A stretch of DNA of 64,000 bases from Siphlonurus alternatus. Its lineage: Eukaryota > Arthropoda > Insecta > Ephemeroptera > Siphlonuridae. The DNA lies in the NCBI GenBank assembly GCA_949825025.1, contig OX463788.1, forward strand, positions 29,567,715 to 29,631,714. Reading direction: 5' to 3'. Below, one piece after another: positions 1-63,482 of this stretch; the stretch's first letter is position 1; the number at the start of each line of letters is the position of its first letter. Position numbers and translations under genes: made by a program. Under the pieces are notes generated by a model. The model did not search any database, had not been told where the DNA came from, and saw only the letters and a list, made by a program, of their open reading frames with translations.

Positions 1-179
1 ATAATTAATTAATATCGCTAGTTCGATTTTCTCTTCCTTTTCCTTCTCCTGTGTTGTCCATCTTTTACCCTCTATCAAATCCCACTATCTCTACCTTTTA
101 TTTCAAATCCCTGGCTTGTCAATGGTTTTTGCTGCGATAGCGTTACATATTTAAACTTTTGGCACCCACAAAGTAGCAG

Positions 180-230
180 CCAATGAAGAGTCGCGCTATA
201 ATTGCGAGACTCGGATCGCCGGTATAAAAG
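180..230 (+). promoter_or_regulatory. CCAAT and TATA boxes upstream of the hammerhead
   Basis: A CCAAT pentamer at 180-184 is followed 39 bp later by TATAAAAG at 223-230, in a locally GC-richer stretch. The spacing fits a polymerase II core promoter whose start would fall near 250-260, just upstream of the hammerhead ribozyme. No experimental support can be seen; this is a motif reading only. Confidence 0.4.
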
Positions 231-306
231 GCCGCGCGAACTCTGCTACTTTGGCAGTAGCTCGATAGTCTTGCTCTCATGTAGACCTGGCTGGGAGCTG
301 CTGCCT

Positions 307-367
307 CTCTCTCCTCGCCATGCTGATGAGGCCCAGTAGGCCGAAACAGCTGTCCATGGCTAGAGAG
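307..367 (+). ncRNA. Type I hammerhead self-cleaving ribozyme
   Basis: All core nucleotides are present: CTGATGA at 323-329, stem II GGCC/GGCC (330-333 with 339-342) closed by a 5-nt loop, and GAAA at 343-346. Stem III is very short (347-349 with 350-352, plus the A346-T353 closing pair), and the predicted cleavage site follows GTC at 354. Stem I is formed by 317-322 with 355-360 (six pairs). An asymmetric internal loop (313-316 opposite 361) separates this from six more pairs (307-312 with 362-367); such loops serve tertiary contacts in natural hammerheads. Stem III is almost loopless, as in hammerheads of Penelope-like elements and animal retrozymes, which often work as dimers. No second copy was found in the window. 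Confidence 0.87.
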
Positions 368-655
368 TGGCGCACCAAATGTATTATTTGTGTGACGATT
401 TTGCTAGCAAAAACTAGCTGATCAAGCCAAAAAAATCCCTCCCTCTCTCTAAAACGAGCGGCGAGTCAAACCTAATATACACGCATAGCGTTGTTTTAAT
501 TAATTTTTCTCTTTTTGCTGGGTCACTGACGGCTAAAAGCTCGAACTATCTCCCTACCCAACAAATCTTTTTCTATCATATGTGTTTTTCTATCTATACT
601 TTCAAAAAAATAATTATATTGTATTATGTATTAATGTATATGTGTTTTCTTCATG

Positions 656-683
656 AATAAACAAATGTAACAAAAAAAAAAAA
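656..683 (+). terminator. AATAAA signal and genomic A12 tract
   Basis: AATAAA at 656-661 is followed ten bases later by twelve A residues (672-683). A poly(A) run this close to its signal suggests the 3' end of a retrotransposed transcript. The unit would run from near 250, through the hammerhead, to here (about 430 nt). It could instead be an unrelated A-tract next to the LINE remnant that follows. Confidence 0.4.
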
Positions 684-689
684 GTACAC

Positions 690-1160
690 AGTGTAATAGA
701 GAGTGCAGAAGGCAAAAGAGTGTTATGAGTATTTCTGAAGCAAGTGGAGTATGCAAGAATCGAGTGCTTTGAAGGGCAATTTGTAGACGGCCGAGGTAAT
801 CAAATCAGATTGACAACAATGTACAAAATTACTAGGAACGCCAAGGGAGATGAGTGGAAAAGTGGACAGGGGGAGATATTTGGGGAGAAGGGACCATGAA
901 TGGAAGCTCGAGTATCAGGGAAGCAACAATGATGTGGGAAAGTATTCGTTTATCAGGAGGATGGCGAGAGAGTGGAATCTGTTGAGGACTGCGGAGGTGG
1001 GCGCGGACAGGATTGAGAAATTCAGGGAGCTGGTGACCTCAAGCAGGACCCAAACTGTGAGCCATAGTGGTGTAACCACAACTGCCGCAGTATAAAAAAA
1101 TATTTACTTTACTTTAATAATGCTGCTGGCTTACCCCATAAAGGGATATGGCGTCATGTT
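690..1160 (+). mobile_element. LINE 3' end, C-terminal tail of ORF2 plus 3' UTR
   Basis: An open stretch at 850-1,095 encodes GRRDHEWKLEY and, further on, RRMAREWNLL followed by a KFREL-type end. This is the usual C-terminal tail of CR1/Jockey-group ORF2 proteins. The same blocks occur in the LINE tail at 23,861-24,127. Upstream 790-850 reads MYKI-TRN-like, also shared. The following 3' UTR (1,113-1,158, beginning AATGCTGCTGGCTTACCC) recurs on the minus strand near 45,800-45,865. The copy is strongly 5'-truncated and not functional. Confidence 0.7.
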
Positions 1161-2440: not shown

Positions 2441-5390
2441 TAGGGGTGAGGTGCTACTGACATTTCCTAACTATACCAGTCTTTAGTTCCACCAACATAT
2501 TTCATTTTTAAATTGAAATAATATTTTATTTTTTAAAATTCAAGTTTTTGGTTTAAAATATAACATATATTTAATTAAATAAAGAATTGTTGCGTATTTA
2601 ATTCGACCTGTAATTAACAGGGTAAGGTGCTACTGACATTTCCTAACTATACCAATCTTAAGTTCCACCTACAAAACATTTTTAAATTAAAATAATATTT
2701 TATTTTGTGAAATTCAAGTTTTTGGTTTAAAATATAAAATAAATTAAATAAAACATTGTTGCGTACTTTAATCTACCTGTAATAGTCAGGGTGAGGTGCT
2801 ACTGACATTTCCTAACTTTACCAGTCATTAGTTCCACCTGCAAAACATTCTGAAATTGAAATTATATTTTATTTTTTAAAATTCAAGATTTTGTTTTAAA
2901 ATATAAAATTAATTAAATAAAACATTGTTGCGTTCTTTAATCTACCTGTAACTTTCAGGGTGAGGTGCTACTGACATTTCCTAACTATACCAGTCTTTAG
3001 TTCCACCTACAAATCATTTTTAAATTGAAATTATATTTAATTTTGTGAAATTCAAGTTGCATGGTTACATATATGAAATTAATTAAACAAAACATTGTTG
3101 CGTACTTTAATCTACATGTAATTAACAGGGTGAATTAATTGCTACTGACATTTCCTAACTATACCAGTCTTTAGTTCCACCTACAAAACTTTTTAATATT
3201 GAAATTATTTTTAATTTTGTAAGATTCAAGTTTTTAGTTGAAAATATAAAATTAATTAAATAAACATTGTTGCGTACAATAATCTACATGTAATTGTCAG
3301 GGTAAGGTGCTACTGACATTTTCTAACTATACCAGTCTTTAGTTCCACCTATAAAACATTTTGAAATTGAAATTACATTTAATTTTGTAAAATACAAGAT
3401 TTTGGTTGAAAATACAAAATTAATTAAATAAAACATTGTTGCGTACTTTAATCTACATGTAATTGTCAGAGGGGGAGATTTTGGTGATGTTACTAATATT
3501 TGCTAACTGTTCCAGTGTTTAGTTCCACCAAGAAAACACATTTATTTCGTAACCATATTTTTTTTTTTAATAATTTTGGTTCAAAATACTGTATAAAATT
3601 TATTAAAAAAGTATTGTTGCCTATTTTAATCTTACTGGAATTTTTAGGGCGAGTTGCTACTAGAATTTGCTAACTTTTCAATTCTTTAGTTCCAGTAAAA
3701 AAACGTGATTTTTTATATTAATCGATTATTTTTTAAAACGATAATGTTTCTTGGCTAAAAGGTGGATTCACATGGCGATTTTTACCATGCGACGCGACGC
3801 GAATAATGCGCATTTGCTGTAACATCCATTGGCGGCCATATTGGGCGATTAAAAGAAAAAGAGCATCGTAATTAACGCGATTACCTGCGAATTCGCCGCC
3901 GCATAGGATTTCACAGCTTTTAAGTTAAAATCGCGCCGCCCATGAAAATCCACCTTAAAACATATCATTAATAATTTAAAAACAGCGTTGTTGCGTATTT
4001 TAATTAGTCGTTATTTTTAAGGTGACATGCTACTAACATCTGCTAACTTTTCCAATCAAATCTTTCACCAACAAAACAATTTTAGATCAAGATATAAATT
4101 TCATATAAAATTTATAGAGTTGAATATATATAACAAAAAAAATCAATGTTTTGTATTAAAAAAAAAAAAAATGGGCGTGCTGCTACTGATATTTGCCAAT
4201 AAAACACTCATTACTTCTATTAACAAAATCTTAAGTGTTGTTAGAAATATTTTATTTTAATAAAATAGAGTTTTTTATTTTTTAAAAATATTTTCTTAAA
4301 AAGGATCCGAAAGACATTGTTGCATATATATTTTAATCGTGCCTGTTAGGGTGTTCTACTAATAACATTTGCTGACTTTTCCAGTCATTATTTCCAATAA
4401 AAAAACACTTTATATTTGAAAGTACATTGCATTTTTTTAGGATTGGAAATTTTTCAAATTAAAATATATAATATATTAAAAAAAGCATTGTTGCCTATTT
4501 CAATCATGAAAATTTTTTATGGGCAAGTTGTTGCTGAAATTTGCTAACCATGAAACTAATAAGTTCCACAACAGAGCACTTACGTTTCGAAATTACATTT
4601 CATTATTCAAGAGTTTTAATTTTTATGGTTCGAAACATATAATTTATTAAAAAAAGCATTATTGCGTATTGTAATCAAGCTGGAATTTTTAGGGCAACCT
4701 GCATGCTACTAACAGTAGCCAACTATTCTAGTCATTAATTTTACCAACAAAACAATTTACATTCAAAAGTCATTTCTTTTAACAATTCAGCTTGTTAATG
4801 GCCACAAATATAGTGATCATTATAAAGGCATTGTTGCGTACTTCAATGCAGATTATAATTTTTTGGTATGCTGACACTTACTTTTTCTAGCTAGAAAAGT
4901 GTTCAGATTAAACAACAAAATACTTTGTATTAAAAATGTTTTTTTTTTATGAAAAAAACCTGTCTCGTTTACAGAGATATTAATAAATAATTTAAAAAAG
5001 CATTTAATGCTGAGTATTTCAATCAACGTGATATTTTATTAACAGGTTGCTGCTGACTTTTGTTATACTAATGAAAGAAAGTTTCTTAACCAACAATCCA
5101 CTTTATTTATAAAGTTATAATATTTTTAATAAAATTAAACAATGTTAATTATTGGCGATTAACACATTACTAATTGAATAAGCATTGTTGCGTACGGAAT
5201 TTTACAGATAAGTAACTTATAGTTACAGATAAGTTGCTACTGACAATAGCTGTAGAAGAAACCATCAAATTTTTTACTTAATTAAACAGGCTTTCTTCTT
5301 CTGATGAAGGTGAACTGAAGTACTTAGGTAAAAAAAGCATTAAAGCTGTGTTTAGAGACATTTCCTGACAATGCTCCTTATTTTCAAAAT
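2440..5390 (+). repeat. Left array of ~170-bp tandem units in the foldback arm
   Basis: Each unit carries GAGGTGCTACTGACATTTCC, then CAGTCTTTAGTTCCACC, an AT-rich middle and a CATTGTTGCGTACTTTAATC-like end. Starts near 2,447, 2,621, 2,789, 2,958, 3,128 and 3,299 give a period of about 170 bp. Units become more diverged toward the axis. A CpG-rich insert at about 3,770-3,950 interrupts the series. Confidence 0.85.
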
Positions 5391-5479: not shown

Positions 5480-8301
5480 CTAAATTTTGAAAATAAGGAG
5501 CATTGTCAGGAATGTCTCTGAACACATATTTAATGCTTTTGTTACCAAGTACTTCAGTTCAACTTCATTTGTAAATCAGAAGAAGAAAGCCTGTTTAAAT
5601 GATTAAATTTAAGTAAAAAATTTGATGGTTTCTTCTACAGCTATTGTCAGTAGCAACTTGTCTTTAACTAAATTCCGTACGCAACAATGCTTTTTCAATT
5701 AATAATGTGTTAATCGCCAATAATTAACATTGTTTAATTTTATTAAAAATATTATAACTTTATAAATAAAGTGGATTGTTGGTTAAGAAACTTACTTTCA
5801 TTAGTAACAAATGTCAGCAGCAACCTGTCAAAAAATTATATACATGTTTACATACATTGTCAGCAACATATTGTATACATTTTAATTTAAAAATACGTTT
5901 TATACCTTGAACAATTAATTAAAAAGAAAGAAATAAATTTTCAACAAAAGTGGTTTGTTGGGTAAGAAATTTACTATCATTAGTAACAAATATCAGCAGC
6001 AACCTGTAAAAAAATAATATACATGTTTACATACATTGTCAGCAACATATTGTATACATTTTAATTTAAAAATACGTTTTATACCTTGAACATTTAATTA
6101 AAAAGAAAGAAATAAATTTTCAACAAAAGTGGTTTGTTGGGTAAGAAATTTACTTTTTTAAGTAGCAAAAGTCAGCAGCAACTTGTCAATAAAATATCAC
6201 GTTGATTGAAATACGCAGCGTTAAATGCTTTTTTAAATTATTTATTAAGATCTCTGTAAACGAGACAGGTTTTTTTCATAAAAAAAAAAACATTTTTAAT
6301 ACAAAGTATTTTGTTGTTTAATCTGAACACTTTTCTAGCTAGAAAAAGTAAGTGTCAGCATACCAAAAAATTATAATCTGCATTGAAGTACGCAACAATG
6401 CCTTTATAATGATCACTATATTTGTGGCCATTAACAAGCTGAATTGTTAAAAGAAATGACTTTTGAATGTAAATTGTTTTGTTGGTAAAATTAATGACTA
6501 GAATAGTTGGCTACTGTTAGTAGCATGCAGGTTGCCCTAAAAATTCCAGCTTGATTACAATACGCAATAATGCTTTTTTTAATAAATTATATGTTTCGAA
6601 CCATAAAAATTAAAACTCTTGAATAATGAAATGTAATTTCGAAACGTAAGTGCTCTGTTGTGGAACTTATTAGTTTCATGGTTAGCAAATTTCAGCAACA
6701 ACTTGCCCATAAAATATTTTCATGATTGAAATACGCAACAATGCTTTTTTTAATATATTATATATTTTAATTCGAAAATTTTCCATTCCTAAAAAATGCA
6801 ATGTACTTACAAATATAAAGTGTTTTGTTATTGGAAATATAGACTGGAAAAGTTAGCAAATGTTATTGGTAGAACACCCTAACAGGCACGATTAAAATAC
6901 GCAACAATGTCTTTCGGATCATTTTTATGAAAATATTTTTTAGAACCTAAAGAACTCTATTTTATAAAAATAAAATATATCTAAAAACACTGAAGATGTT
7001 GTTGATATATATATATATATATATTTAAATACAAAACACTGATTTTTTTTATATATATTCAACTCTAATTTTATATGAAATTTATGTCTTGATCCAAAAT
7101 TGTTTTGTTGGTGAAAGATTTGATTGGAAAAGTTAGCAGATGTTAGTAGCAGGTCACCTTAAAAATTCCGGCTAAATTAAAATAAGCATTAACGCATTTT
7201 TTTTAATTAATGATATAATGATATATTTTAGCCAAGAAACTTTATTGTTTTAAAAAATAATCGATTAATAAAAAATCACGTTTTGCTGCTGGAACTAAAG
7301 AATTGAAAAGTTAGCAAATTCTAGTAGCAGCTCGCCCTAAAATTTCCAGTTTGATTAAACTAGGCAACCATACTTTTCTAATAAATTTTATACAGTACGT
7401 ATTGTGAACCAAAATTAAAATAAAATATAGTTACGAAATAAATGTGCTTTCTTGGTGGAACTAAACACTGGAAAAGTTAGCAAATATTACTAACATCTCT
7501 CCATAAAAATTTCAGGTAGATGAGAGCATGCAGCAATGTTTTATTTAATTAAATTTATATTTTTAAACAAAATTAATCTCGAATTTTACAAAATAAAATT
7601 TCAATTTCAAAATGTTTTGTAGGTGAAACTAAAGACTTGTATAGTTAGGACATGTCAGTAGCACCTTACCCTGACAATTACATGTAGATTACAGTACGCA
7701 ACAATGCTTTTTTAATTAATTTTTAATTTGGAACCAAAAACTTGAATTTTACAAAATAAATATAATTTCAATTTAAAAATTATTTGTAGGTGGAACTAAA
7801 GACTGGTATAGTTAGGACATGTCAGTAGCACCTTACCCTGACAATTACAGGGCGATTAAAGTACGCAACAATGTTTTATTTAATAATTTTATATTTTCAA
7901 TTAAAAACTTGAATCTTCCAAAATTAAATATAATTTCAAATTTAAAATGTTTTGTAGGTGGAACTAAAGACTGGTATAGTTAGGATATGTCAGTATCACC
8001 TCACCCTGAATATCACGGGTAGATTAAAGTACGTAACAATGTTTTATTTAATTTGTTTTTTATTTTACACCAAAACTTAAATTTTATAAAATAAAAAGTA
8101 ATATTAATTTCAAAATGTTTTGTAGGTGGAACTAAAGTCTGGTATAGTTAGGAAATGTCAGTAGCACCTCACCCTGAAAATTACAGGTAGATTAAAGTAC
8201 GCAACAATGTTTTATTTATTTATAATTTTATATTTTAAACCAAAAACTTGAATTTCACAAAATAAAATATAATTTTAATTTAAAATGTATTGTAGGTGGA
8301 A
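5480..8301 (-). repeat. Right array of ~170-bp units, inverted copy
   Basis: Complement of the left array: GCAACAATG, GGTGGAACTAAAGACTGG and GTTAGGAAATGTCAGTAGCA recur about every 170 bp. A local duplication of about 180 bp (CAGCAACCTGT, TTGGGTAAGAAATTTACT) lies at 5,820-6,190. The array is cut at 8,302 by a TTAA element. It resumes at about 16,946 with TGGTATATAGTTAGG, which completes the interrupted unit. Confidence 0.85.
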
Positions 8302-8302
8302 C

Positions 8303-8958
8303 TTAAAGTAAAGTGCGCACGAGAAAAAAAAGTTGAGTTAGTACTATCTAAAAATAGTTCAAGTGGTCCTCCATATGGAACTTTAATCCAAAAAATTCCA
8401 TCTCAAATAGGTTCTCCAGAAAAAAATTCCAAAGTCTGAATGAGCGCGTCGCTTAACATTGGGCCTTACCTGACAAACACCCTCGATTATCTCGAAAAAA
8501 TACTGCGTTCAGTGGTATAAAAAAAATATAGCGATGTTTTATGACTTGAGCTTTAACCATATGCAAATTTTGAGCATTTTTTTTCGAATCAGTTTTTCTG
8601 TAAAAAATCTTGGAAATTTCTTATGATAATTTAACATGGACGATTTTCAAGAATTTTTTACGGAAAATCTGAATCGAAAAAAAATGCTTAAAATTTGCTT
8701 GTGGTTAAAGTTCAAGTCATAGAACATCGCTATATTTTTTTTATACCACTAAACGCAGTATTTTTTTGAGATAATTGAGGGTGTTTGTCCGGTAAGGCCC
8801 AATGTTAAGCGACGCGCTCATTCAAACTTTGGAATTTTTTTCTGGAGAACCTATTTGAGATGGAATTTTTTTGATTTCAGTTCCATATGGAGGACCACTT
8901 GAACTATTTTTAGATACCACTAACTCAACTTTTTTTTCTCGTGCGCACTTTACTTTAA
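8303..8958. mobile_element. Palindromic TTAA-flanked element
   Basis: A ~650-bp near-perfect hairpin whose ends are AGTAAAGTGCGCACGAG and its complement. TTAA stands at both borders (8,303-8,306 and 8,955-8,958). TTAA duplications are known for piggyBac-like and some Kolobok-like elements. No protein is encoded. It sits 4 bp from the start of the next, much larger insertion. Confidence 0.8.
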
Positions 8959-12431: not shown

Positions 12432-12899
12432 TACCACTTAGGTCCTACCACTTAGTCTAGTGGTCCTACCACTACCCACGAGAAAATAAGCGTGAAAATT
12501 GGAGTCAAATTCACTCGCGCATATTGACTCCAATTGACCCAAATTTGGCCCCTAGTTTATGTCAATATGCGCGAGTGAATTCACGTGTATTGAACCATTT
12601 TGGTGCAGATTGGCTCGTATATATTGACGTATTTTCGCGTATTTTGACAAATATTGGCGTAAATGCCAGCCCAAATCCTTCGTTCGGCCTCACGTACTTT
12701 CAGGTATATTCACATATATTGACTCACCTTTTTTCACCCATATTAACCCAAAATTGGCCCCTTTTATGCGTGAATCTGAATGAGTGGATTGTTCACGAAT
12801 ATTCACCCACTTTCACCTCTGTTGACCTGCATTGCCCCCCGTACTTGTTTCACTCATTCTCACGCTTTTTGACGCACTTTCACCCATTTGTCAACCAAT

Positions 12900-13915
12900 T
12901 TTTTCCATACAGGCCCCTCATGCATATTGACGCATTTTGACATATTTTGACATATTTTCACCCATTTGTCAACCAATATTTTCCATACAGTCCTCTCATG
13001 CATATTGACGCATTTTGACATATTTTAATTGACGCACTTTCACCCATTAGTCAATTAATTTTTTCCACAAAGTCCCCTCATGCATATTGACGCATTTTGA
13101 CATATTTTGACGCACTTTCACCCATTAGTCAACCAATTTTTTCCACAAAGTCCCCTCATGCATATTGACGCATTTTGACATATTTTGACGCACTTTCACC
13201 CATTTGTCAACCAATTTTTTCTATAAAATCTCCTCATGCATATTGACGCATTTTGACATATTTTCACGAAGTTTCACGCTTTTACCAACCAAATTTTTAC
13301 ACCAAGTCCGTTCATGCATATTGACACTTTTTGACATATTTTGACGCACTTTCACCCATTAGTCAATTAATTTTTTCCACAAAGTCCCCTCATGCATATT
13401 GACGCATTTTGACATATTTTGACGCACTTTCACCCATTAGTCAACCAATTTTTTCCACAAAGTCCCCTCATGCATATTGACGCATTTTGACATATTTTGA
13501 CGCACTTTCACCCATTTGTCAACCAATTTTTTCTATAAAATCTCCTCATGCATATTGACGCATTTTGACATATTTTCACGAAGTTTCACGCTTTTACCAA
13601 TCAAATTTTTACACCAAGTCCGTTCATGCATATTGACACTTTTTGACATATTTTGACGAACTTTGACCCTTTTAGTAACCAACTTTTTCCATAGAGTCCG
13701 TTCATGCATATTGACACTTTTTGACATATTTTGACGAACTTTGGCCTTTTTACTAACCAACTTTTTCCATAAAGTCCGTTCATGCATATTGACACTTTTT
13801 GACATATTTTCACGAATTTTCACGCTTTTATGGAACAAATTTTTACAACAAGTCCGTTCATGCATATTGACACTTTTTGACATATTTTCAAGAACTTTCA
13901 CATAAAAGTATCGAT
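12900..13915 (+). repeat. Tandem ~79-bp satellite array, forward orientation
   Basis: Units contain CATGCATATTGACGCATTTT, GACATATTTTGACGCACTTT, a CACCCATTAGTCAACCAA-like block and TTTTTTCCACAAAGTCC. Repeats start near 13,079, 13,158 and 13,237. A block of several units (13,022-13,320) is itself duplicated at 13,330-13,640. Confidence 0.85.
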
Positions 13916-14819: not shown

Positions 14820-15250
14820 CAATTTTTTTACAAAGTCTATTCACGCACATTGGCACTTTTTGACATATTTTCGCGAACTTCCACGTATTTACTAACCAAA
14901 TTTGTCTACAAAGTCCACTGACGTATTTTGACCCATTTTGACATATTTTCACGAACTTCCACGTATTTACTAACCAAATTTTTCTACAATGTCCATTGAC
15001 GTATTTTGACCCATTTTGACATATTTTCGCGAACTTCCACGTATTTACTAACCAATTATTTCTACAAAGTTCACTGACGTATATTAACCCATTTTGACAT
15101 ATTTTCACGAACTTCCACGTATTTACTAACCAAATTTTTCTACAAAGTCCACTGACGTATTTTGACCCATTTTGACATATTTTCACGAACTTCCACGTAT
15201 TTACTAACCAATTATTTCTACAAAGTTCACTGACGTATATTGACCTATTT
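14820..15250 (+). repeat. Second forward satellite block
   Basis: About five units of roughly 76 bp with GACATATTTTCACGAACTTC, CACGTATTTACTAACCAA and TTTCTACAAAGTCCACTGACG. It is a diverged subfamily of the satellite in the same element. Confidence 0.8.
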
Positions 15251-15259
15251 TGACAATTA

Positions 15260-16140
15260 ATCTATACAGGTGAATGGACTTTGTAAAAAAAGGTGTTATC
15301 TTCCATAAACGGACTTTGTGGGAAGATTTGATCGATAAACGTGTGAAAATGCTTGAAAAAGTGTAAAAATAGGTGAACTTGCATGAACGGACTTTGTGGA
15401 AAAAGTTGGTTAGTAAAAGGGTCAAAATATGTCAAAAAGTGTCAATATGCATGAACGGACTTTGTATAAAAATTTGGTCGATAAAAGGGTGAAAGTTCGT
15501 GAAAATATGTCAAAAAGTGTTAACATGCATGAACGGACTTTATGGAAAAAGTTGGTTAGTAAAAGGGCCAAAGTTCGTCAAAATATGTCAAAAAGTGTCA
15601 ATATGCATGAACGGACTTTATGAAAAAAGTTGGTTAATAAATGGGTCAAAGTTCGTCAAAATATGTCAAAAAGTGTCAATATGCATGAACGGACTTAATG
15701 GAAAAAGTTGGTTAGTAAAAGGGTCAAAGTTCGTCAAAATATGTCAAAAAGTGTCAATATGCATGAACGGACTTTATGGAAAAAGTTGGTTAGTAAAAGG
15801 GTCAAAGTTCGTCAAAATATGTCAAAAAGTGTCAATATGCATGAACGGACTTTCTGGAAAAAGTTGGTTAGTAAAAGGGTCAAAGTTCGTCAAAATATGT
15901 CAAAAAGTGTCAATATGCATGAACGGACTTGGTGTAAAAATTTAGTCGGTAAAAGGGTGAAAGTTCGTGAAAATATGTCAAAAAGTGTCAAACGGACATT
16001 AAGGAAAAATTTGGTTAGTAAAAGGGTCAAAGTTCGTCAAAATATGTTAAAAAGTGTCAATATGCATGAACAGACTTGGTGTAAAAATTTGGTCGGTAAA
16101 AGGGTGAAAGTTCGTGAAAATATGCCAAAAAGAGTGAATT
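15260..16140 (-). repeat. Satellite array, inverted orientation
   Basis: Complement of the left array: ATGCATGAACGGACTTT, GGAAAAAGTTGGTTAGTAAA, AGGGTCAAAGTTCGTCAAAA and TATGTCAAAAAGTGTCA repeat every ~78 bp, with up to nine units very alike. It forms the right arm of the foldback structure. Confidence 0.85.
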
Positions 16141-21100: not shown

Positions 21101-24100
21101 GCACCCCTGAGGGTGGAGAACTACCCCTAAAATCCATTTTCCTTAAAAGTTGTGCTAAAAATGCTAAAATTATGAAATATATTTTCAAGGGGTAATCGAC
21201 CCTCCTGAACTATAAAATAATATTATAGTGTCTCCCTGACGCACTCCTGAGGGTGGAGAACTACCCCTAAAATCCATTTTCCTTAAAAATTATGCTAAAA
21301 TTATGAAATTAATTTTCAAGGGGTAATCGACCCTCCTAAACTAGGAAATAATAATTTATTTTCTCCCTGACGCACCCCTGAGGGTGGAGAACTACCCCTA
21401 AAATCCATTTTCCTTAAAAATTGTGCTAAAAATGCTAAAATTACGAAATATATTTTCAAGGGGTAATCGACCCTCCTGAACTATAAAATAATATTATAGT
21501 GTCTCCCTGACGCACTCCTGAGGGTGGAGAACTACCCCTAAAATCCATTTTCCTTAAAAATTATGCTAAAATTATGAAATTAATTTTCAAGGGGTAATCG
21601 ACCCTCCTAAACTAGGAAATAGTATTATATTTTCTCCTTGACGCACCCCTGAGGGTGGAGAACTACCCCTAAAATCCATTTTTCTTAAAAATTGTGCTAA
21701 AATTATGAAATTAATTTTCAAGGGGTAATCGACCCTCCTGAACTAGAAAATAATAATATATTTTCTCCCTGGCGCACCCCTGAGGGTGGAGAACTACCCC
21801 TAAAATCCATTTTCCTTAAAAATTGTGCTAAAATTATGAAATATATTTTCAAGGGGTAATCGACCCTCCTGAACTAGAAAATAATATTATAAATTCTCCC
21901 TGACGCACCCCTGAGGGTGAAGAACTACCCCTAAAATCCATTTTTCTTAAAAATTGTGCTACAATTTTGAAATTAATTTTTCAAGGGTTATTAAAACCCT
22001 CCGAATCTCAGAAATAATTTTAGACTTTTTCCCCGACGCAACCCTGAGGGTAAACGGTCACCCACCACCTCCTTCTTTCTTCATAATCGAGTTGGAATTG
22101 CGAATTAAATTATTTTCGGGATTTATCGTAATTTTTCATAGAAAAAAAATATCCCAGACTCACCCCCCTTTACTTGCAGTATGAAGATGGATGTCCACCG
22201 TTATAATAATTACATGGCGTTAAGGCTCATGTTGTGGTCTGCACAATGAGGCTGTGTGTGACTTTAATTAACAACTGAGGTGTGACCATCAATTCCACAT
22301 AACGTCTATCACTTTCGGCTCGTCAATGGTCTCAAATCTCTTTCTGAAGCAAAAGGTTTACAAGAAGAGATTTGAGACCAATTGACGAACAGAAAGTGGA
22401 GATCAGATGTTGCATGGAATTGGTCCCACCTCAGACGATGTTAGAGGCCATGCACCTACCCACATAGCCTCGTTGAGCAGACCAACATGTGCCATCACGC
22501 CAATTAACGGTGCTGGACACATTGAGTGAAACCATCGTCATGCTGCAAGTGAAGGGGTGAGTCTGGAATATTTTTTCTCTGAAAATTTTTGATAAATCAC
22601 GGAAAAATAATTAATTTACAATTTCAACTTGCTTAATAAGAAAGAAGGATATGGTGGGTAGCCGTTGACCTTCAGGGTTGCGTCGTGGAGAAATTCTAAA
22701 ATTATTTTCGAGTTCAATAGGGTCGATTACCCCTTGAAAATTAATTTCATAATTTTAGCACAATTTTTAAGGAAAGTGGATTTTAGGGGTAGGTCTCCAC
22801 CCTCAGGGGTGCATCGGAGAGAAAATCTAAAATTATTTTTTAGTTCAGGAGGGTCTATTACCCCTTGAAAATTAATTTCATAATTTCAGCACAATTTTTA
22901 AGAAAAATTGATTTTCGGATTAGGTCTCCACCCTCAGGGGTGCGTCGGGGAGAAAATCTAAAATTATTTCCGAGTTTAGGAGGGTCGATTACACCTTGAA
23001 AATTAATTTCATAATTTTAGCACAATTTTTAAGGAAAGTGGATTTTAGGGGTAGGTCTCCACCCTCAGGGGTGCATTGGGGAGAAAATCTAAAATTATTT
23101 TGCAGTTCAGGAGGGTCTATTATCCCTTGAAAATTAGTTTCATAAATTTAGCACAATTTTTTAGAAAAATGGATTTTCGGGGTAGGTCTCCACCCTCAGG
23201 GGTGCGTCTGAGAGAAAATCTAAAATTATTTTCTAGTTTAGGAGGGTCGATTACCCCTTGAAAATTAATTTCATAATTTTAGCACAATTTTTAAGGAATA
23301 TTGATTTTCGGGGTAGTTCTCGAATCCACCCTCAGGGGTGCGTCGGGGAGAAAATTTAAAATTATTTCCGAGTTCAGGAGGGTCAATTACCTCTTGGAAA
23401 TTAATTTCATAATTTTAGCACAATCAGTGAGAAAAATTAACAATAATTATCGTATGGACATTTGCATATAGCCATATACCACGCGCCGCGCGCAATATAA
23501 TTAAGAGACTCTATTTAATTAAAGCAAATGACACGGTGTATGGTCACATTTATCTTTTATTTTATTTATTAAGACTAATATTTAACTTTATAATGATAAT
23601 TAAAAATTTGCAAGTGGATAATATTATATAATCACGATTCACGAAACGTAAATTAGCTCAGGAATAGTATGTTGTTCCTATACTGTTATGAACAGCTAGC
23701 CGCATTCTAGTAGTTCACACTTTCGGCCGCTAGAGGGCTAAATTTTGTTGTGTTCGCGAATAGTGAAAGAGAGTGTGATCAAAATGATAGAGCAACTGGA
23801 ATGGGAGGACCTGGAGGAGAGGAGGTAGCAAAGTAGACTGGTAACAATGTACCGTATAAAATGACTAGGAACCAAAAAGGCTGGGAGGAGCTTTGCAATT
23901 GTACTGAGGAAGGGCGTTATAAGGGTAGGAGGGACCGTGATTGGAAGTTGGACTATGAGGGCAGCAAAAATGATATGGGCAAGTATTCCTTCTTGAGAAG
24001 AACGATGACGGAGTGGAATTTGCTGGACTCTGGGCTTGTGGAGGTTCAGAGTGTTGGTAAGTTCAGGGAGGGGCTGAGAGAGTCAGCCGCAAGCAAGCGA

Positions 24101-24386: not shown

Positions 24387-27300
24387 GTCTTTTATTAAAC
24401 ACAAAAAGTGTACACATAAAATAATATTAGAAATATACATTGTAAAATAACACTGTAATAGAACACATAAAACACACATACAAACTATATATAATAGTTA
24501 CAGAATAATAGAAAATGATAATAAAAGAATATAAAATAAATAACAGATGATATTAACAGCCTTAACAGCCTGTTACATCATAATATATCATATGTATATA
24601 GGCACATATGTAAAACAAAATATGACATAGAAAATAAATAGAATGAAAAACTTATTGCTTAAGGGTAAGGTAACGCCACCAATGTTAAAAAAAATCCCTC
24701 ACACAAAAATTCTGAAAAAAATTTAAAATGTTCTCCTCTACACCCCCTATCAGTAGCTAAAGTATCAGGTATACACATACGATCTAGTTTTTGAGTTATG
24801 AATTTTTAAAGTTTGACTACTTTAACATGGAGAAATGGAACTCCCATGTTAAATTAGTCAACTTTAAAAATTCATAACTCAAAAACTAGATCGTATTTGT
24901 ATACCTGATATTTTAGCTACTGATAGGGGGTGTAGAGGAGAACATTTTAAATTTTTTTCAGAATTTTTGTGAGAGGGATTTTTTTTAACATTGGTGGCGT
25001 TACCTTACCCTTAATTGCTATTCAAAATATATAGACTATATGAAGTCTCCCTTGGCATATTCGCTGATAGGTTTAATTCTAGATTTACAGATATTTAAAT
25101 GATATTGGCTACAATGTTCATTACATAATTTACATACACAAGATTGTTCAGCTTTATGATAACCAGAGGATTTACAAATTAGATGGTGGAAGCCGTGAAC
25201 AGCTTGGCGAGTTAAGACATTTCTAACATTGGATCTATCCAATTGGGGCAGACACCAATGTTTACATGTCATAGCATCAGTGCTGTAGAACTCAGGATTA
25301 ATATCCTGAGCTTTTTGATTCCTGACAGCTAGAAAATTGGAATATTGATCTGTCATTGGAAGTTTAAACATTTCTTTGATTTCTGTAATAAAATAATTGG
25401 AATCTATCAGTTTATAGGCCAGTCTAGTTTCGGTAAATTTTGACAGACACAGTAGTCTTTTAACAAACATGGCTTTTACTGTTTCTAATTTATCAAAGTC
25501 ATATATAAAACAAAATATGACATAGAAAATAAATAGAATGAAAAACTTATTGCTTTTTTTTTTAATTCATTTTAGCAATATATACATACCGGCCAAGGTT
25601 AAACAATTAACCCTGTCGACCGCTACAGAGATTCATAAAAAATCTTCAAGATATTAGATCAGTATTAAGGAAAAATATTAATGCATTGAGAAATAAATGA
25701 ATAAGAATAATTTTACACAAAATCATACAGAGTTGAAACTATTTTTGACCCTAATGTTCTAATACAAAAAGTATAACATTTTAATTACAATATATTACTT
25801 ACTTATGATTATTTTACTGCTACTTTATTCATTATTTTTAACATATTTATTATGAAAACACAACCAAACAAAAACAATTTTTTCATGCTAATCAGCAAGC
25901 AAAGACAAGCAACATTAGATGCAGCAATATGCATGCATAAGGTCCATCTGAAACAAAAAAGCTTTAGAGTACGTTTTTCCAAACAATGCACAACATACGT
26001 GACTTTAAAACAACCAAAAATGAATATTTTCATTTATTATTATTCGCTTATTATTTTTCAATAATTACTTTGAATTCAAAATTTGAGATTTTTTTTTTGT
26101 ATTATTATTATTATTATTATTATTATTTTATTGTTACAAATTATTAACTGAAAACAATTTTACATAATTTGATTTTAATTTAGTTATTTATTATTAATAA
26201 AAGTAAAGAATGAGAAAATAATATAACATGAAAATAAGCTGTTGATTCACATTTAAAATTTGAAAAAAATTAACTGAATTTGGGCCTTTAAATCCTAGAA
26301 TAGAAATAATTTATTAGTTTGGCTGAAAAAGATTGAGGCTGAAACAGATCACATACATAATACATATTAATAAGCATTATTAAAGGGGCATGAAACAAAA
26401 TTATACAATTTTAATATGTAAAGAACCATAAAATGAAATACATAGCAAGTAAAAAAATAAAAATATACTGAAAATATTTACTGGTACGTAAATGATTAAT
26501 TTTGATTAATTTCCTGTATGTTACATTTATTAATAAATTATAATCAATTTTTTTTTATTTATTTTTTTTTATGAGATAGAGAGAAACCATTCTTTAACAT
26601 GTTTTTTTTATGAGATTTTTAGAATCTAAATTTTTTAATACAGTTGGCATTTTGTTCCATAATCGAGGTATTAAAAACTTCCAGGTCCTGTCATTAAATC
26701 TATTTATCCTTTTTGGGGTAATTAATGGTTCTGACATATAAAGTCGGGTTTGATGAGTGTTTTAATTGCTATTTAAAATATATAGACTATTTGAAGTCTC
26801 CCTTGGCATAATCGCTGATAGGTTTAATTCTAGATTTACAGGTATTTAAATGATATTGGCTACAATGTTCATTACATAATTTACACAAGATTGTTCAGCT
26901 TTATGATAACCAGAGGATTTACAAATTAGATGGTGGAAGCCATGAACAGCAATCTCAACAATCTTTTTGCTGCCCGTCTCTAATCTAAAATTTCTCCAAC
27001 TCCTTCTTTGGTTGTACTCACTGAACTATATAACTCACTACATCCAAACAGAACTACATTATTGGCCTGATGCAAGTATTTTGTATGCCTTCTTTTCATA
27101 TATGTGTATGGATAATTGACCTCATAAAGCACAAATTGGGCCGTAAGCTCCAACCTACTTGAACCTGGTTCAAAGTTGTTTGAACCAGGTTTAAAGTTGA
27201 ACCGAGATCAATTAAAATTTTCTTAAGCTCCACCGAAGTTAAACCAAGTTCAACGCATTGTTGGTTTAAACCTGGTTCAAACTCGGTTCAGCGCAGTTTT

Positions 27301-44494: not shown

Positions 44495-46372
44495 CAGATA
44501 CAATTATAAATTAAATTGTAAATTAAATTAAATTTAACAGCATGTGTGTTTGTGTCAGCAAACATTATGAGCTGCCTACTTCACGATCGCTGCACGCTAC
44601 TAACGTGCTCATGTATTTAAAAATCATATTCATTGTAGTAAAGGTCAGATTCCTTCTAGAGATCCTTTTATATTAAGGTATAACCTGAGAATTTGTCTGT
44701 CAAGGTCAGACCATAAAAAAACTTGGCAACACTGTAGCGCCCTATAGTAATGCTAATCAGCAGGAGGGGGAGGTGACTACAGTCCTTGAAAGCGTTGCCA
44801 CATTCCTCATCTAGTTTCAAGAACGAGCAACCCAGCGGTTCTAAATATATGAAAACATTCATAAAAATAGTCCAAAAAATTAGCTTTTAATATATCTATA
44901 TAAAATTTTAAAAAATATCTCAAGCCGTTTTTGTGTAATGTTAATTGAAAAATTTAACATTGAAAGGATACAAAATTCACATTTGAATAAATTAATTATA
45001 ATTAAACCAATGGTTAAAAAAATCTGAAAAAAATCAGCAGTATTTGGACAATTGTTGTAAGTCTACCAAATTAATTTCAAGAACATCTCTGTCGATACGA
45101 CTTTTTTCGTCCAAATATCTCAGGTTAAGCCTTAACCCAAGTGGTTTCATTAACTTTGGTCATCATAAGATATGAAAGATACACTCAAATTTTACAAGAA
45201 CATAATTATATACCGGGTGTTCGTAAGTACTGTACGCATATTGTCGTTTTTAACCACTAATTGTTATCCAAAATTAAGTTAAATTTAATTGTTTTTAATT
45301 TCAACCTTCGGGCCCTTAATTAATTGCGTATAGCAATAAAATTCGAACTAAGCTTTTAAAATTTTAATTGGTTTTAATTGAATTTTCAATTACTTAAGTT
45401 AATTAAGGATAAAAATTAAAATAATTTAAATTAACTTAATTTTCCTTACACTAGGGTTGCAATTAGTAAATTAAGTCAATTCATATATGCCTATTTTTAT
45501 AAAATGTTTGAATTTGATTTTAACATGTGTTTCCCTATATTGATTTTAAATTTTAAGTTGCACCCCATTTATCATAGCAGAAACGGTAGATAATATATAA
45601 AAATTTCCTTGGGGCACCATTCAAGTTAGTTCTTTAGCTACCCCCCGCTAAATTTTGGAATCACTATACCTCCAATATTGCCCCTACAGAACACATCAAA
45701 CATGCATATAGACACTTATGAAAAACACCCAGTATATACACTGATATATCAGTTCTTAAACACGATAATTGCACTTTCTGACTGCAATGAATAATGATAT
45801 GGATTTCTTTTACAGCAACATAACATGACACCATATCCATTACAGGGTAAGCCAGCAGCATTAGTATCTCAGCGTATTTTTATTAATTATATTATATTGC
45901 AATTAAATATCGGTAAGAGTTATTGAAACCACTGCGGTTTCATAAAATATTTTTCTATAAGAGCTACTACCACTTTTGCATTTCTATAACTGAAAAACAG
46001 CCGCATTGATTGTCTTGTTTGGTTTTACATCTATCATTATAGCGGTGTGGTTACAGCACCGAGTTAACTGATCTCAGCTTGGTATAATATATATAAATAT
46101 ATATATTATTTATAGAGAGAGAGAGAGAGAGAGATTATTGATGTCATTTTTATACATTACTGGAAACTAGAGATTGAGATCGGCAATCTATGCAAATTCT
46201 ACCAAGCAGAGATCAGCGAACTAGACGCTACCACGATGATATATATAGGCAGTGCATCATCTTAGTTGTATCAATTCAAGCTTAGCTTCAGACAAGAAAT
46301 CCTGATAATATCTTGTTTTGAATTTGAATGATATTAAATAAGAATACCAATAATGATGCAGTTCTACGTGTA
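44495..46372. other. Intergenic sequence, part 3, with LINE 3' scrap
   Basis: Mostly AT-rich. On the minus strand, about 45,800-45,865 repeats the LINE 3' UTR seen at 1,113-1,158 (AATGCTGCTGGCTTACCC). A (TA)n/(GA)n patch lies at 46,084-46,135. Confidence 0.5.
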
Positions 46373-59084: not shown

Positions 59085-59139
59085 TATTATTAGCCCTAAT
59101 AATTAATAATAATAATAATAATTATTATTAGCTCTTAGC

Positions 59140-61001
59140 CCTAGGCTCTATTGCATTTCACAAATGCCTCTTTCTGCGATTCTCAGATTGCAGGACGGTT
59201 ATGCGGCTGGCCCACCCTCATGTCGGGACCATAAGGTCACCCATACCTTTTTCATGGATGACCTGAAAATTTTTGGTTCGAGCAAAGCCAAGCTCAAGGA
59301 GTCACTTGAGGTTGTTAAAGCTTATGCATCAGATACAGGGATGGAGCTAGGAGTCAACAAGTGCGCAGTTTTGCACATTCTGCGGGGAAAGGTGGATGGC
59401 GAGAGGGAGGATGTTGAGTTGACAGACGGGAGCATTATTCATCATCTTGATGCCGAAGCGCGGTACAAGTACCTGGGAGTGAGTGAGAGTCACGTTCAGG
59501 ATACTGTGAAGTGCCAGGCCGCACTTCGTGGCGAGTATGTCCGACGCCTGAAGAAGATTTGGGGCTCCAGGTTGTCGGGTCGCAACAAGATCCATGCGAC
59601 AAACATGCTTGCTGTCCCTGTCATGCTCTACACGTTTGGCGCCATGAAGTGGAACGTGATGGAGCTTAGAGACCTCGATTTCACCACGAGGAAGATCATG
59701 TCCTCCAGTTTTAGCCACCACAAGAGAGCCTCGGTAGAGCGGGTCTATCTCCCTCGTGAGCAGGGGGGTAGGGGCTTGTTGGGAGTGGAGAACATTTACA
59801 ATCGGATGGTTCTCTCGATGGCTTGTCGAGTAGCAACGAGTGTGGATCCCCATTTGCAGCTTGTGTATCAGCATGAGCTGTACAGACGTGGAGCGTTTTT
59901 GTTCAGTGCAGCTGAAAGGGCAGCGCAAATCCTTGGGTTAGAGCTGGACTTGGCACAGCCGGATGCGAGGCCAGGCGAGAATCTCGCGGGGTTGCCTCGT
60001 GCTGTGGCTAAGAAGAGGGTGTGGGAGGCGGAGTGTAGGATGCTGATGCAAGGGCACATGGAGAAGAACATGCACAGTGTGTTTTTCAAGAACATCGAGA
60101 GCTTGGGCCTGAGCAGGGAGCGGACCTTTGCCTTCCTGCAATCCTCCGGCTTGACATCTGAGGCTGAGAGTAATATCATCAAGATGCAAGATGGTGTGTT
60201 TGCGACCCTTGCGTACCAGAAGGTCGTGTTTGGGCGTCACTTGGATGCCAAGTGTCGGGCGTGTTTCCGATTCCCCGAGACCACCATGCATCTGCTCTCT
60301 GCCTGTTCATTCTACGCCAGGACTCTGTACATTGAGCGGCATAATTCTGCATTGAGAGTGCTTTATTTCCACCTAAGGCACCATTTTGGTATCGACGAAG
60401 CGCCTGTCATACCATTCGCTCCGGGGGACATAGAGGCGGTGGTAGAGAACGACCAGGTGAAGATCTTCTGGAATTACTCGTTCCCTACCACTCGCCAGCT
60501 CCATGCTACCAAGCCAGACATTGTTCTGCTTGAGAAGCGCAAGAAGGTCATGACAGTGATTGAATTTTCTGCTCCTGCGGAGCACAACATCACTGACAAG
60601 TACACGGAAAAGCGCGACAAGTATCGAGACCTTGTCATGGACTTGCGGCAAAGCTATCGGGGACATTCGGTGTCTCTTGTTGTCCTGTTGGTCGGCGTGA
60701 TGGGCGGGGTGCCTGACACACTACTCTCTGGGCTTCGGCAAGTACCAGGCTGCCGTGGATCCGCTGAGCGGCTGGCGGATGCCATGCAGAAGGCAGTGTT
60801 GCTGGGCTCTCTTCGTCTCCTTCGCGCGCATGGGGAGGTTGGGTGAGGTGCACCCATAAAAATAGAAAAGGCAGCCCTGGAGTTTACTGCACGAGAGTGC
60901 GGAGCGCCGGGGTCGAGTTTTTTCTTTAGTTGTTAAAGTTGTTAGAGGAGGAATACTCTGTTTTTCATGGAGCCTGTACTTTCAACTTTGGCCTGCTGGG
61001 G

Positions 61002-61005
<4 letters not shown>
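59140..61005 (+). mobile_element. R4/Dong-like LINE copy B (5'-truncated in the RT)
   Basis: A single open frame (59,164-60,846, 560 codons) starts between RT motifs B and C. FMDD at residues 30-33 is the catalytic box. KYLGV, RNKIHATNML and GGRGLLGVENI follow. A C-x2-C-x8-H-x4-C zinc knuckle comes next, then a restriction-like endonuclease core KPDIVLLEKRK...VIEFSAPAEHN...EKRDKYRDL. This layout is that of R2/R4-type LINEs with a C-terminal endonuclease. It ends in a long A tract and (TAA)n at 61,003-61,068. The frame is uninterrupted although the 5' part is lost. Confidence 0.88.
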
Positions 61006-61046
<41 letters not shown>

Positions 61047-63482
61047 ATAATAATAATAATAATAATAAAAATCGGAAATTGGAGGAAGAGGGCAAAGAGG
61101 AGCAACCTCAGCGGCCGCCCAAAGCAGAAACAATGGCAGAGTTTTGGTCGTCCATTTGGTCGGAGCCAAAGCAACACTCTGAAGATGCTTACTGGTTGCG
61201 AGAGGAAGAGGAGGAATGCAGAGACATTCCGGCAATGTATTAGTATTACACTGGCTGATGTACAGGCTGCAATTAGGAAAACGCAGAACTGGAAGGCTCC
61301 GGGTGTGGATGGCATTCACAACTTCTGGTGGAAGTATTTTAAAACTACTCACCAGGCTCTTCCTACTCACTTTCATGAGGCCTTGGAAGATCCGTCCATT
61401 GTGCCAAGATTTTGTACGCTTGGAATTACGTACATGAAGCCGAAGTCAGGTGATTCATTGAATCCCAAGAACTATAGGCCAATCACATGTCTTCCCACTC
61501 TGTACAAGATCTTCACATCCATTCTGTCGATAAAGATTTATGACCATCTTGTCGCGAATGGACTTCTTGCTGAGGAACAGAATGGCTGTCGGAAGGGCAC
61601 GAGGGGATGCCGGGAGTTATTGGTAGTTGACGCTGTTGTGTCTCAGCAGGCTCGTAGAAAACACCGTAATATTTCAGTAGGTTGGGTTGACTACAAGAAA
61701 GCCTTTGATTCAGTCCCCCATTCCTGGCTCCTCTCTGTACTTCACATTTACAAAATTCATCCTTGCATTGTTCAGATTCTCACTTCTTGCATGGGCATGT
61801 GGAGGACTTGTCTTCATGTAAACCAAGGGGGGGTCAGCTACAAGACCAGAGAGATGCGAATCTCGAGAGGTATTTTTCAGGGAGATAGTCTCAGCCCATT
61901 ATGGTTCTGTCTTGCATTGAACCCGCTGAGCAGGATGCTCCGAACCTCTGGGTATGGTTACGTTCTACAGAGGAATCCAGAAGTTCGCATTTCTCACCAG
62001 TTTTACATGGATGACCTCAAGTTATATGCTTCTGGTGAAGACCAGTTGCACAGCATGTTTGAACTTGTCAAAAGTTTTAGTGATGCAATTTGCATGGAGT
62101 TTGGTCTTGACAAGTGTGCTGTTGTGCATGTGAGAAAAGGGGAGATTCAAGATCCACAAAAAGGCTTGCGGCTCATGGGAGGCACCGTTATTCAAGACTT
62201 GGGTGTCGAGGAAAACTACAAGTACCTCGGTCTGCAGCAGCTAATTGGCATTAAAGATGTAGATGCCAGAAAACAAGTCGAGAAAAAAGTGCTGTCTCGA
62301 GTCGACAAGATTTGCAAGTCTTTTGTCAGTGCGAGGAACAAGATTACTGCGATTAATACGTGGGCTATCCCTGTGGCTGGATATACGTTTGGTGTCGTCA
62401 GGTGGTCGGAGACGTCACTGCAAACTTTTGATAGAAAAGTGAGAACCACCCTCACGAAGCACAGGATACATCACCCGAGGAGCTCAGTCGAGAGACTGTA
62501 CCTTTCACGTCATGTAGGTGGAAGAGGTTTGCTCAGCATGGAGATGATGTGTCGTCAGCAGGAGTTGAAACTTCGGCAGTACTTTGTGTCACGTGGTGAT
62601 GGGTTGCATGCAGCTATTTGCAACCAGGACCGTGGCTACACTCCGCTACATTTGAGTGAGCAAGAGTTTCAGCCTGCCATTAGAACCCAGGCTGACAGAG
62701 TTTTGGAGTGGTCAACAAAAGCATTGCATGGTCGGTTTGCTGCAGCGTTATCTTCGGATCAGGTGGACACCAAGAGTTCCACTGAGTGGCTGCGGACAAG
62801 TGGGTTGTTTGCGGAGACAGAGGGCTTTGTCTGTGCCATACAGGATCAGGTCATCAGGACTAGGGCGTATGAGCGACACATCCTCAAAGTCAACATCAGT
62901 GATCGGTGTCGTCTTTGCAAGCAGGCTAACGAGTCCATTCAGCATGTCACTGGGGGCTGTCCAGTGCTTGCTCCAAAAGAGTACTTAGAGCGCCACAATT
63001 CTGTTGCCAAAGTTGTACATCAAGCTTTGGCCAAGAAAGTTGGTCTCATTGAGACAGAGGTTCCGTACTATAAGTGCAAGCCGGAACAAGTTCTCCGTAA
63101 TCAGGATGCAAAAATCCTGTGGGATTCTGCCATCACCACAGATAGAGCTGTTGAAGCAAACAGACCTGATCTTGTTCTCTTCGACAAGAAATCTCGAACA
63201 GCGGTGATTGTCGACATTGCTGTCCCGCTGGACGAGAATCTTGTGACCACAGTTGCGGAGAAAAAGCGCAAGTACCAGCCACTTGCTGTCGAGCTCAAAG
63301 ACATGTACCAGCTCCGTAGTGTTGATGTGGTTCCAGTTGTGATCTCTAGTAACGGTCTTGTGACCAAAGACTGGTCATTTGCCAGAGAGAAGTTGGCTCT
63401 CAAAGAATACCACATGCGTGTCATGCAGAAGGCTGCTATTCTTGGCACGGCTAACATTGTGCGCAAGGTTTTGAGCTTGTAG
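60930..63482 (+). CDS. LINE reverse transcriptase with restriction-like endonuclease (copy C ORF)
   Basis: The mechanical open frame starts in the tail of copy B, so the first ~46 codons are not element protein. The rest is a complete RT-thumb-zinc knuckle-endonuclease polyprotein, acting by target-primed reverse transcription in the nucleus. PD at residues 746-747 and D/K residues downstream are the predicted nuclease catalytic set. All RT catalytic Asp residues are kept. With no stop or frameshift it may be a recent copy, but a promoter and start cannot be identified. Confidence 0.8.

Follow-up and report, generated by a model that had tools for sequence, protein, structure and literature searches.

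A non-coding 639-bp hammerhead ribozyme repeat, probably retrozyme-like, with insertion ends of the Penelope type

In the lizard Penelope system, as described in the main account of that work, the protein cuts and extends both strands of its target and starts synthesis at two adjacent internal sites of the RNA, and the purified protein prefers AT-rich DNA (PMC11167929). The interval between the two start sites is equated there with the 30-40-bp tail of Penelope-like elements (PLEs), a signature called unique to them; a ribozyme-dead RNA was inserted too, and no difference in start site between the strands was observed (PMC11167929). The main text of that paper contains none of the words retrozyme, circular and non-autonomous. 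Inverted Penelope pseudo-LTRs (pLTRs) have been described, one of them with a tail of 31 bp, along with a TATA/initiator pair and duplications 8-10 bp in length; self-priming is offered there as the cause of head-to-head repeats (PMC3846280). Penelope elements have also been put forward as "strong" or "likely" candidates for the movers of animal retrozymes, and their own ribozymes are described as minimal (PMC7229834, PMC7761336). Our literature search, which covered titles and abstract openings in a limited collection, gave no report of Penelope-type ends on a retrozyme.

The window considered here is a stretch of 64,000 nt (G000:C11:29567715-29631714) from a host genome of 455.7 Mb. At its left edge lies the right part of an insertion that belongs to a repeat family with a hammerhead ribozyme. 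We think it probable that this element is a non-coding and non-autonomous retroelement with a unit of 639 nt, a retrozyme-like RNA that is inserted in the Penelope manner. Its features in the window are the following.

1 to 611, plus strand: right end of the insertion and part of its plus-strand arm, from about position 23 to 633 on the 639-bp unit
162 to 305, plus strand: structured RNA, whose helices 169-179/243-253 and 253-263/295-305 abut each other and the ribozyme
223 to 231 and 254 to 258, plus strand: possible TATA box TATAAAAGG and initiator-like GCAGT, both of putative function
307 to 367, plus strand: type I hammerhead ribozyme with an intact core and three stems, predicted to cleave after 354
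612 to 625, no strand: 14-bp target-site duplication AATTATATTGTATT, right-hand copy; its counterpart lies to the left of the window (L066:3146-3159)

The initial annotation had proposed a complete type I hammerhead with matched stems and an internal loop in stem I, and all of this is borne out. The core motifs are CTGATGA (323-329) and GAAA (343-346); stem II has 4 bp (330-333/339-342, loop 334-338); stem III, of 2-3 bp (346-348/351-353), is made from the palindrome ACAGCUGU; and stem I has an inner part (317-322/355-360) and an outer part (307-312/362-367) of 6 bp each, interrupted by the internal loop (313-316/361). Having both a stem III and the stem I loop, the ribozyme is of the canonical type I and not of the minimal Penelope type. 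A covariance-model search also found it, with Rfam Hammerhead_HH9 matching 305-377, though at 25.7 bits (E 9.8e-4) against a gathering score of 52; over the 64-kb window there was no Rfam match at the gathering level. When a relaxed hammerhead descriptor (stem I at least 4, stem II at least 3 and stem III at least 2 bp) was run over both strands of the 64 kb, 307-367 was the single match, against a mean of 0.01 over 100 Markov shuffles, so that this hammerhead is not a product of chance. The minimum-energy fold of 305-369 differs from the active one (-24.4 versus -18.4 kcal/mol, with no credit for the core). The neighboring structured RNA (162-305), which the bases of the putative TATA box and initiator (223-258) overlap, has a fold z of -5.2 on the plus strand versus -1.95 on the minus strand; since 53 of 710 windows reach z -4.8 or lower, the top ones often strong on both strands, this score is no test of rarity here. 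Telomerase RNA or another known non-coding RNA was rejected as an identity for the region, there being no further credible Rfam match in 1-1500 and no lead in the literature. Three 269-nt windows farther along (at 24661, 30241 and 44281) have foldback z below -14 on both strands and are probably palindromic DNA repeats.

A genome search with window positions 170-700 as the query, in which 40 of 591 candidates were scored, yielded at least 59 matches. The long matches among those listed show 96-99% identity and, with the exception of the window itself, stop near window position 617. In the genome the ribozyme pattern of the family is matched exactly at 126 places (64 and 62 on the two strands) and its reversed control at none; viral contigs also have none, and the 35 stretches that they yield with a looser hammerhead pattern do not resemble the 639-bp family by eye. 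For a closer analysis we assembled 67 loci of the host genome (the 30 best matches of the 170-700 search, plus 6, plus 31), of which 56 remained once 11 that repeat an already sampled insertion had been removed; L077 and L099, with less than 300 bp of the unit, do not enter the tallies of ends, duplications and arms, which thus concern 54 insertions. Loci were chosen either for their score or for having an intact ribozyme, and the sample is biased to young copies. Nevertheless, L079, L084, L092, L093 and L096 diverge from the majority row by 5-17%, and hence the family has also been active long ago.

Alignment of the copies provided both the length of the unit and its tandem arrangement. The unit (L043:1308-1946 is a genomic example) is 639 bp long with a GC content of 41.6%, and L043:776-1946 has no ATG open reading frame above 45 aa, which is the length of the longest. 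Two intact ribozymes stand about 639 bp apart on the same strand in 8 of the 56 loci, and the supposed contrast between a single ribozyme per unit and the usual two-ribozyme retrozyme is therefore lost. The unit that holds the window's ribozyme begins some 22 bases before position 1. The insertion runs on leftwards of the window (G000:C11 about 29566874-29567714) with a further stretch of the plus arm and with a minus arm in inverted orientation; its left end is long and its right end short, in the sense explained below.

These boundaries bear on the compact unit of about 430 nt, from promoter through ribozyme to poly(A) end, that the initial annotation had drawn. The TATA, the AATAAA (656-661) and the A12 (672-683) are indeed all present in the sequence, which is what speaks for a Pol II unit ending at the last two, but they do not form one compact unit: the repeat ends ahead of AATAAA and A12, which lie in flanking DNA past the target-site duplication. 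Since both the copies and the duplication stop before these signals, the repeat does not include the poly(A) end, and with its mobility refuted by the copy boundaries we give the Pol II unit next to no credence. A LINE 3' end (684-1161) directly adjoins the A12; it has matches at 45817-45866 (88%), to its tail, and at 23822-24025 (69%), to one part. A reading of 162-1161 as one LINE-type insertion, a template-switch chimera, is refuted because the family copies cover 1-617 without 618-683. The 20-bp near-repeat (142-161/1162-1181) that prompted it was equally good in 24 of 2985 random pairs, and was equalled by 9 of 3000 random 36-mer draws and 11 of 3000 shuffles. Elsewhere the window has 168-169-bp tandem arrays at 2444-3469 and 7454-8308, whose consensus suggests one family in opposite orientations, and 78-bp tandem arrays at 12867-13901, 14821-15255 and 15380-16139.

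The architecture of the insertions is quite regular. In 38 of the 54, two arms are arranged head to head, with minus-strand units on the left, plus-strand units on the right and the 5' ends in the center, although some of these arms measure merely 30-50 nt; the count of "single"-armed loci is 18, with L077 and L099 included. Duplications that match exactly over 12 bp or more flank 32 of the 54 insertions; among 1064 pairs of swapped flanks the rate is 0.28%. The duplications measure 13-15 bp in 29 of the 32 insertions and are 81% AT. When the ends of these 32 insertions, with boundaries set by the duplications, are placed on the unit, long ends cluster at positions 31-33 of the next unit and short ends at 632-636, a separation of 39 nt on the closed unit, with a few ends elsewhere (7, 12, 15, 42, 45, 54 and 606). 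The stretch between the two sites has no hairpin signal and folds no better than its shuffles (z +1.2). Both outer ends could be classified in 29 of the 54 insertions, and 28 of these 29 combine one long end with one short end (16 long/short and 12 short/long); the other, L095, was scored short/short, and its left side overruns the end of the unit by about 15 nt. At least one end falls outside the two classes in the remaining 25. This near-strict pairing of long with short suggests that the two target strands use different start sites, a rule that did not show up in the in vitro study of the lizard protein.

The inner ends of the arms are far less orderly. At the 38 centers, 20 pairs of arms overlap by 1-8 nt, 4 abut and 5 are separated by 1-3 extra nucleotides; the rest show gaps of 9-71 nt (7 cases) or overlaps of 25 and 67 nt (2 cases). 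Some of the short overlap may be due to alignments extended by chance. Hairpin self-priming was rejected as the source of the inverted arms, as the two arms have inner ends within 5 nt of each other in just 4 of 38 insertions; the explanation offered for Penelope repeats in PMC3846280 misfits this family for the same reason, the independence of the inner ends.

Taking these observations together, we envisage the following cycle. A tandem copy would be transcribed, perhaps from its own TATA/initiator, and hammerheads one unit apart would release a 639-nt monomer that a host ligase circularises, as the retrozyme literature leads one to expect. A Penelope-type enzyme acting in trans would then nick both strands of an AT-rich target about 14 bp apart; here the duplications are observed and the enzyme is postulated. 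Each 3' end would prime at one of the two fixed RNA sites, 39 nt apart, one per strand, the fixed ends and the one-long/one-short rule being observations and the priming our interpretation of them. Finally, both cDNAs would pass the ribozyme cut, often continuing beyond one unit, and would be linked head to head, the junction varying between insertions; arms, lengths and junctions are all seen in the copies, where an overlap of a few nucleotides is common at the junction. More generally, it is plausible, if somewhat short of probable, that Penelope machinery moves animal retrozymes, with the nicked strands priming at different sites of a ribozyme-made circle on which the cDNAs meet. If this is true, the one-long/one-short rule would be the trace left in vivo by two enzyme molecules that sit asymmetrically on a single RNA. 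What is reported of the lizard system counts against the proposed cycle, because ribozyme-dead RNA is inserted there and no strand difference in the start site was observed (PMC11167929). The length of the unit, the minimum-energy fold of 305-369 and the 25 insertions with an end outside the two classes also speak against it, as does the lack of a Penelope protein match in the flanks of the 67 loci.

The arms themselves constrain the template. The two start sites are about 255-294 nt from the ribozyme cut, so that arms of more than 320 nt begun at these sites have crossed it; among the 92 arms, 76 are longer than 320 nt and 34 longer than 639 nt, and the longest reaches 2461 nt. Their inner ends do not pile up at the cut, with 0 of 92 at unit positions 372-380 and 2 at 381-384, and linear ribozyme-cut monomers were accordingly rejected as the template. 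With arms crossing the cut and no pile-up there, the template must have been either uncut or re-closed. That the same insertion machinery copies an uncut multimeric transcript, the ribozyme not being needed for insertion, is a possibility to be taken seriously even if we do not rate it as the probable one: the arms do cross the cut site, and in vitro the lizard system inserts ribozyme-dead RNA and has unprocessed RNA as its main substrate (PMC11167929). However, the two intact tandem ribozymes on one strand at 8 of 56 loci would cut such transcripts, and the units of a young insertion look as if copied from one monomer or from near-identical ones, which a homogeneous array would fit too. In the 39 young insertions (less than 1% from the majority row), 26 of which have two or more units, units within one insertion differ by 0.38% versus 1.0% when units are dealt at random, and opposite arms differ by 0.43% versus 1.0% (none of 1000 permutations was as low); the medians for the entire sample are 0.45% within and 1.5% between insertions. 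A circular template explains this likeness simply; a homogeneous source array may also account for it.

Twin priming during LINE mobilisation also gives head-to-head arms and target-site duplications, both of which fit what is seen here, but it predicts one 3'-terminal end and one variable end. The family has instead two fixed outer ends, 39 nt apart within a unit that has no poly(A), where LINE or SINE insertions have one fixed 3' end that is usually a poly(A) or simple repeat, and we consider this explanation highly improbable. Two consecutive LINE reverse-transcriptase reading frames (574 and 850 aa between stops) occupy 59122-63482 of the plus strand; the protein at 60930-63482 has its named best relatives in a planthopper, a butterfly, a ladybird and a mayfly, which makes an insect the probable host. 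A closer rival is that the unit is the pseudo-LTR of an autonomous Penelope-like element, or a deletion derivative of one without reading frames, and so a Penelope relative by descent. We regard this as possible but rather doubtful. Tandem and inverted units, the tail, the duplications and the TATA/initiator are all known from pLTRs (PMC11167929, PMC3846280), but the ribozyme is canonical rather than minimal, the pLTRs described from A. vaga measure about 181-218 bp (PMC3846280) as against 639 bp, and at 30 loci neither a reading frame nor a shared coding flank adjoins the unit. The initial annotation had come close in supposing a ribozyme-bearing retroelement or a Penelope-like repeat continuing leftwards, given the inverted arm left of the window and the Penelope-type ends; 120 Penelope proteins gave no match at E 1e-3 in the 67 loci or the window. 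The PF01541 domain has 2 matches among 8 candidates, not tied to the element, and says little as a Penelope probe, since just 3 of the 120 listed proteins carry that label. Left of the window's insertion, L066:715-2750 has pieces of LINE reverse transcriptase, recognised by eye from the reading frames, and no Penelope protein match. The unit may thus be best described as a retrozyme-like variant with Penelope-type insertion, for which descent from a Penelope pLTR is possible; we say "retrozyme-like variant" because the unit exceeds the described animal retrozymes in length.

For the hypothesis that Penelope elements move retrozymes, the retrozyme-like family described here offers a footprint at the insertion ends, and it suggests a route by which animal ribozyme elements may enter new sites. 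The ends of this non-coding family with a canonical ribozyme bear the very signature for which work on a Penelope enzyme gave a biochemical explanation in 2024. Its dozens of natural insertions constitute a test set for the Penelope insertion model, and the 639-nt RNA is a compact substrate with which to ask if circles serve as template.

How, then, does the family compare with the systems already described? With the metazoan non-LTR retrozymes, as they are characterised in PMC7229834, it shares a canonical type I hammerhead, the lack of coding capacity, a GC content under 45%, tandem copies and the absence of LTRs; the helix III of two pairs with a tetraloop given there as the invertebrate form of the ribozyme has its counterpart in the short stem III here. 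It differs in unit length (639 bp versus about 150-450 bp) and in its head-to-head arms, two-site ends and 13-15-bp duplications, which do not figure in the description of metazoan retrozymes in that source (PMC7229834). The plant LTR retrozymes (PMC4918200, as summarised in PMC7229834) are likewise non-autonomous and hammerhead-bearing, with units of 600-800 nt, but they have type III ribozymes, LTRs with PBS and PPT, and 4-bp duplications. The pDo500 repeat of Dolichopoda cave crickets is, like ours, an insect hammerhead repeat, described as satellite DNA and compared here by its description. Unlike Penelope, the family has no RT/GIY-YIG reading frame in the unit or the flanks of the 67 loci and a ribozyme of the canonical kind, and the tail at one end, called optional in accounts of Penelope elements, is almost strict. 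Nevertheless, the partial tandems, the head-to-head arms, a tail in the range of 30-40 bp (39 nt here), the duplications and the AT-rich targets are all as described for Penelope/Poseidon, and so is a TATA/initiator in the repeat (PMC3846280), which is putative in our family.
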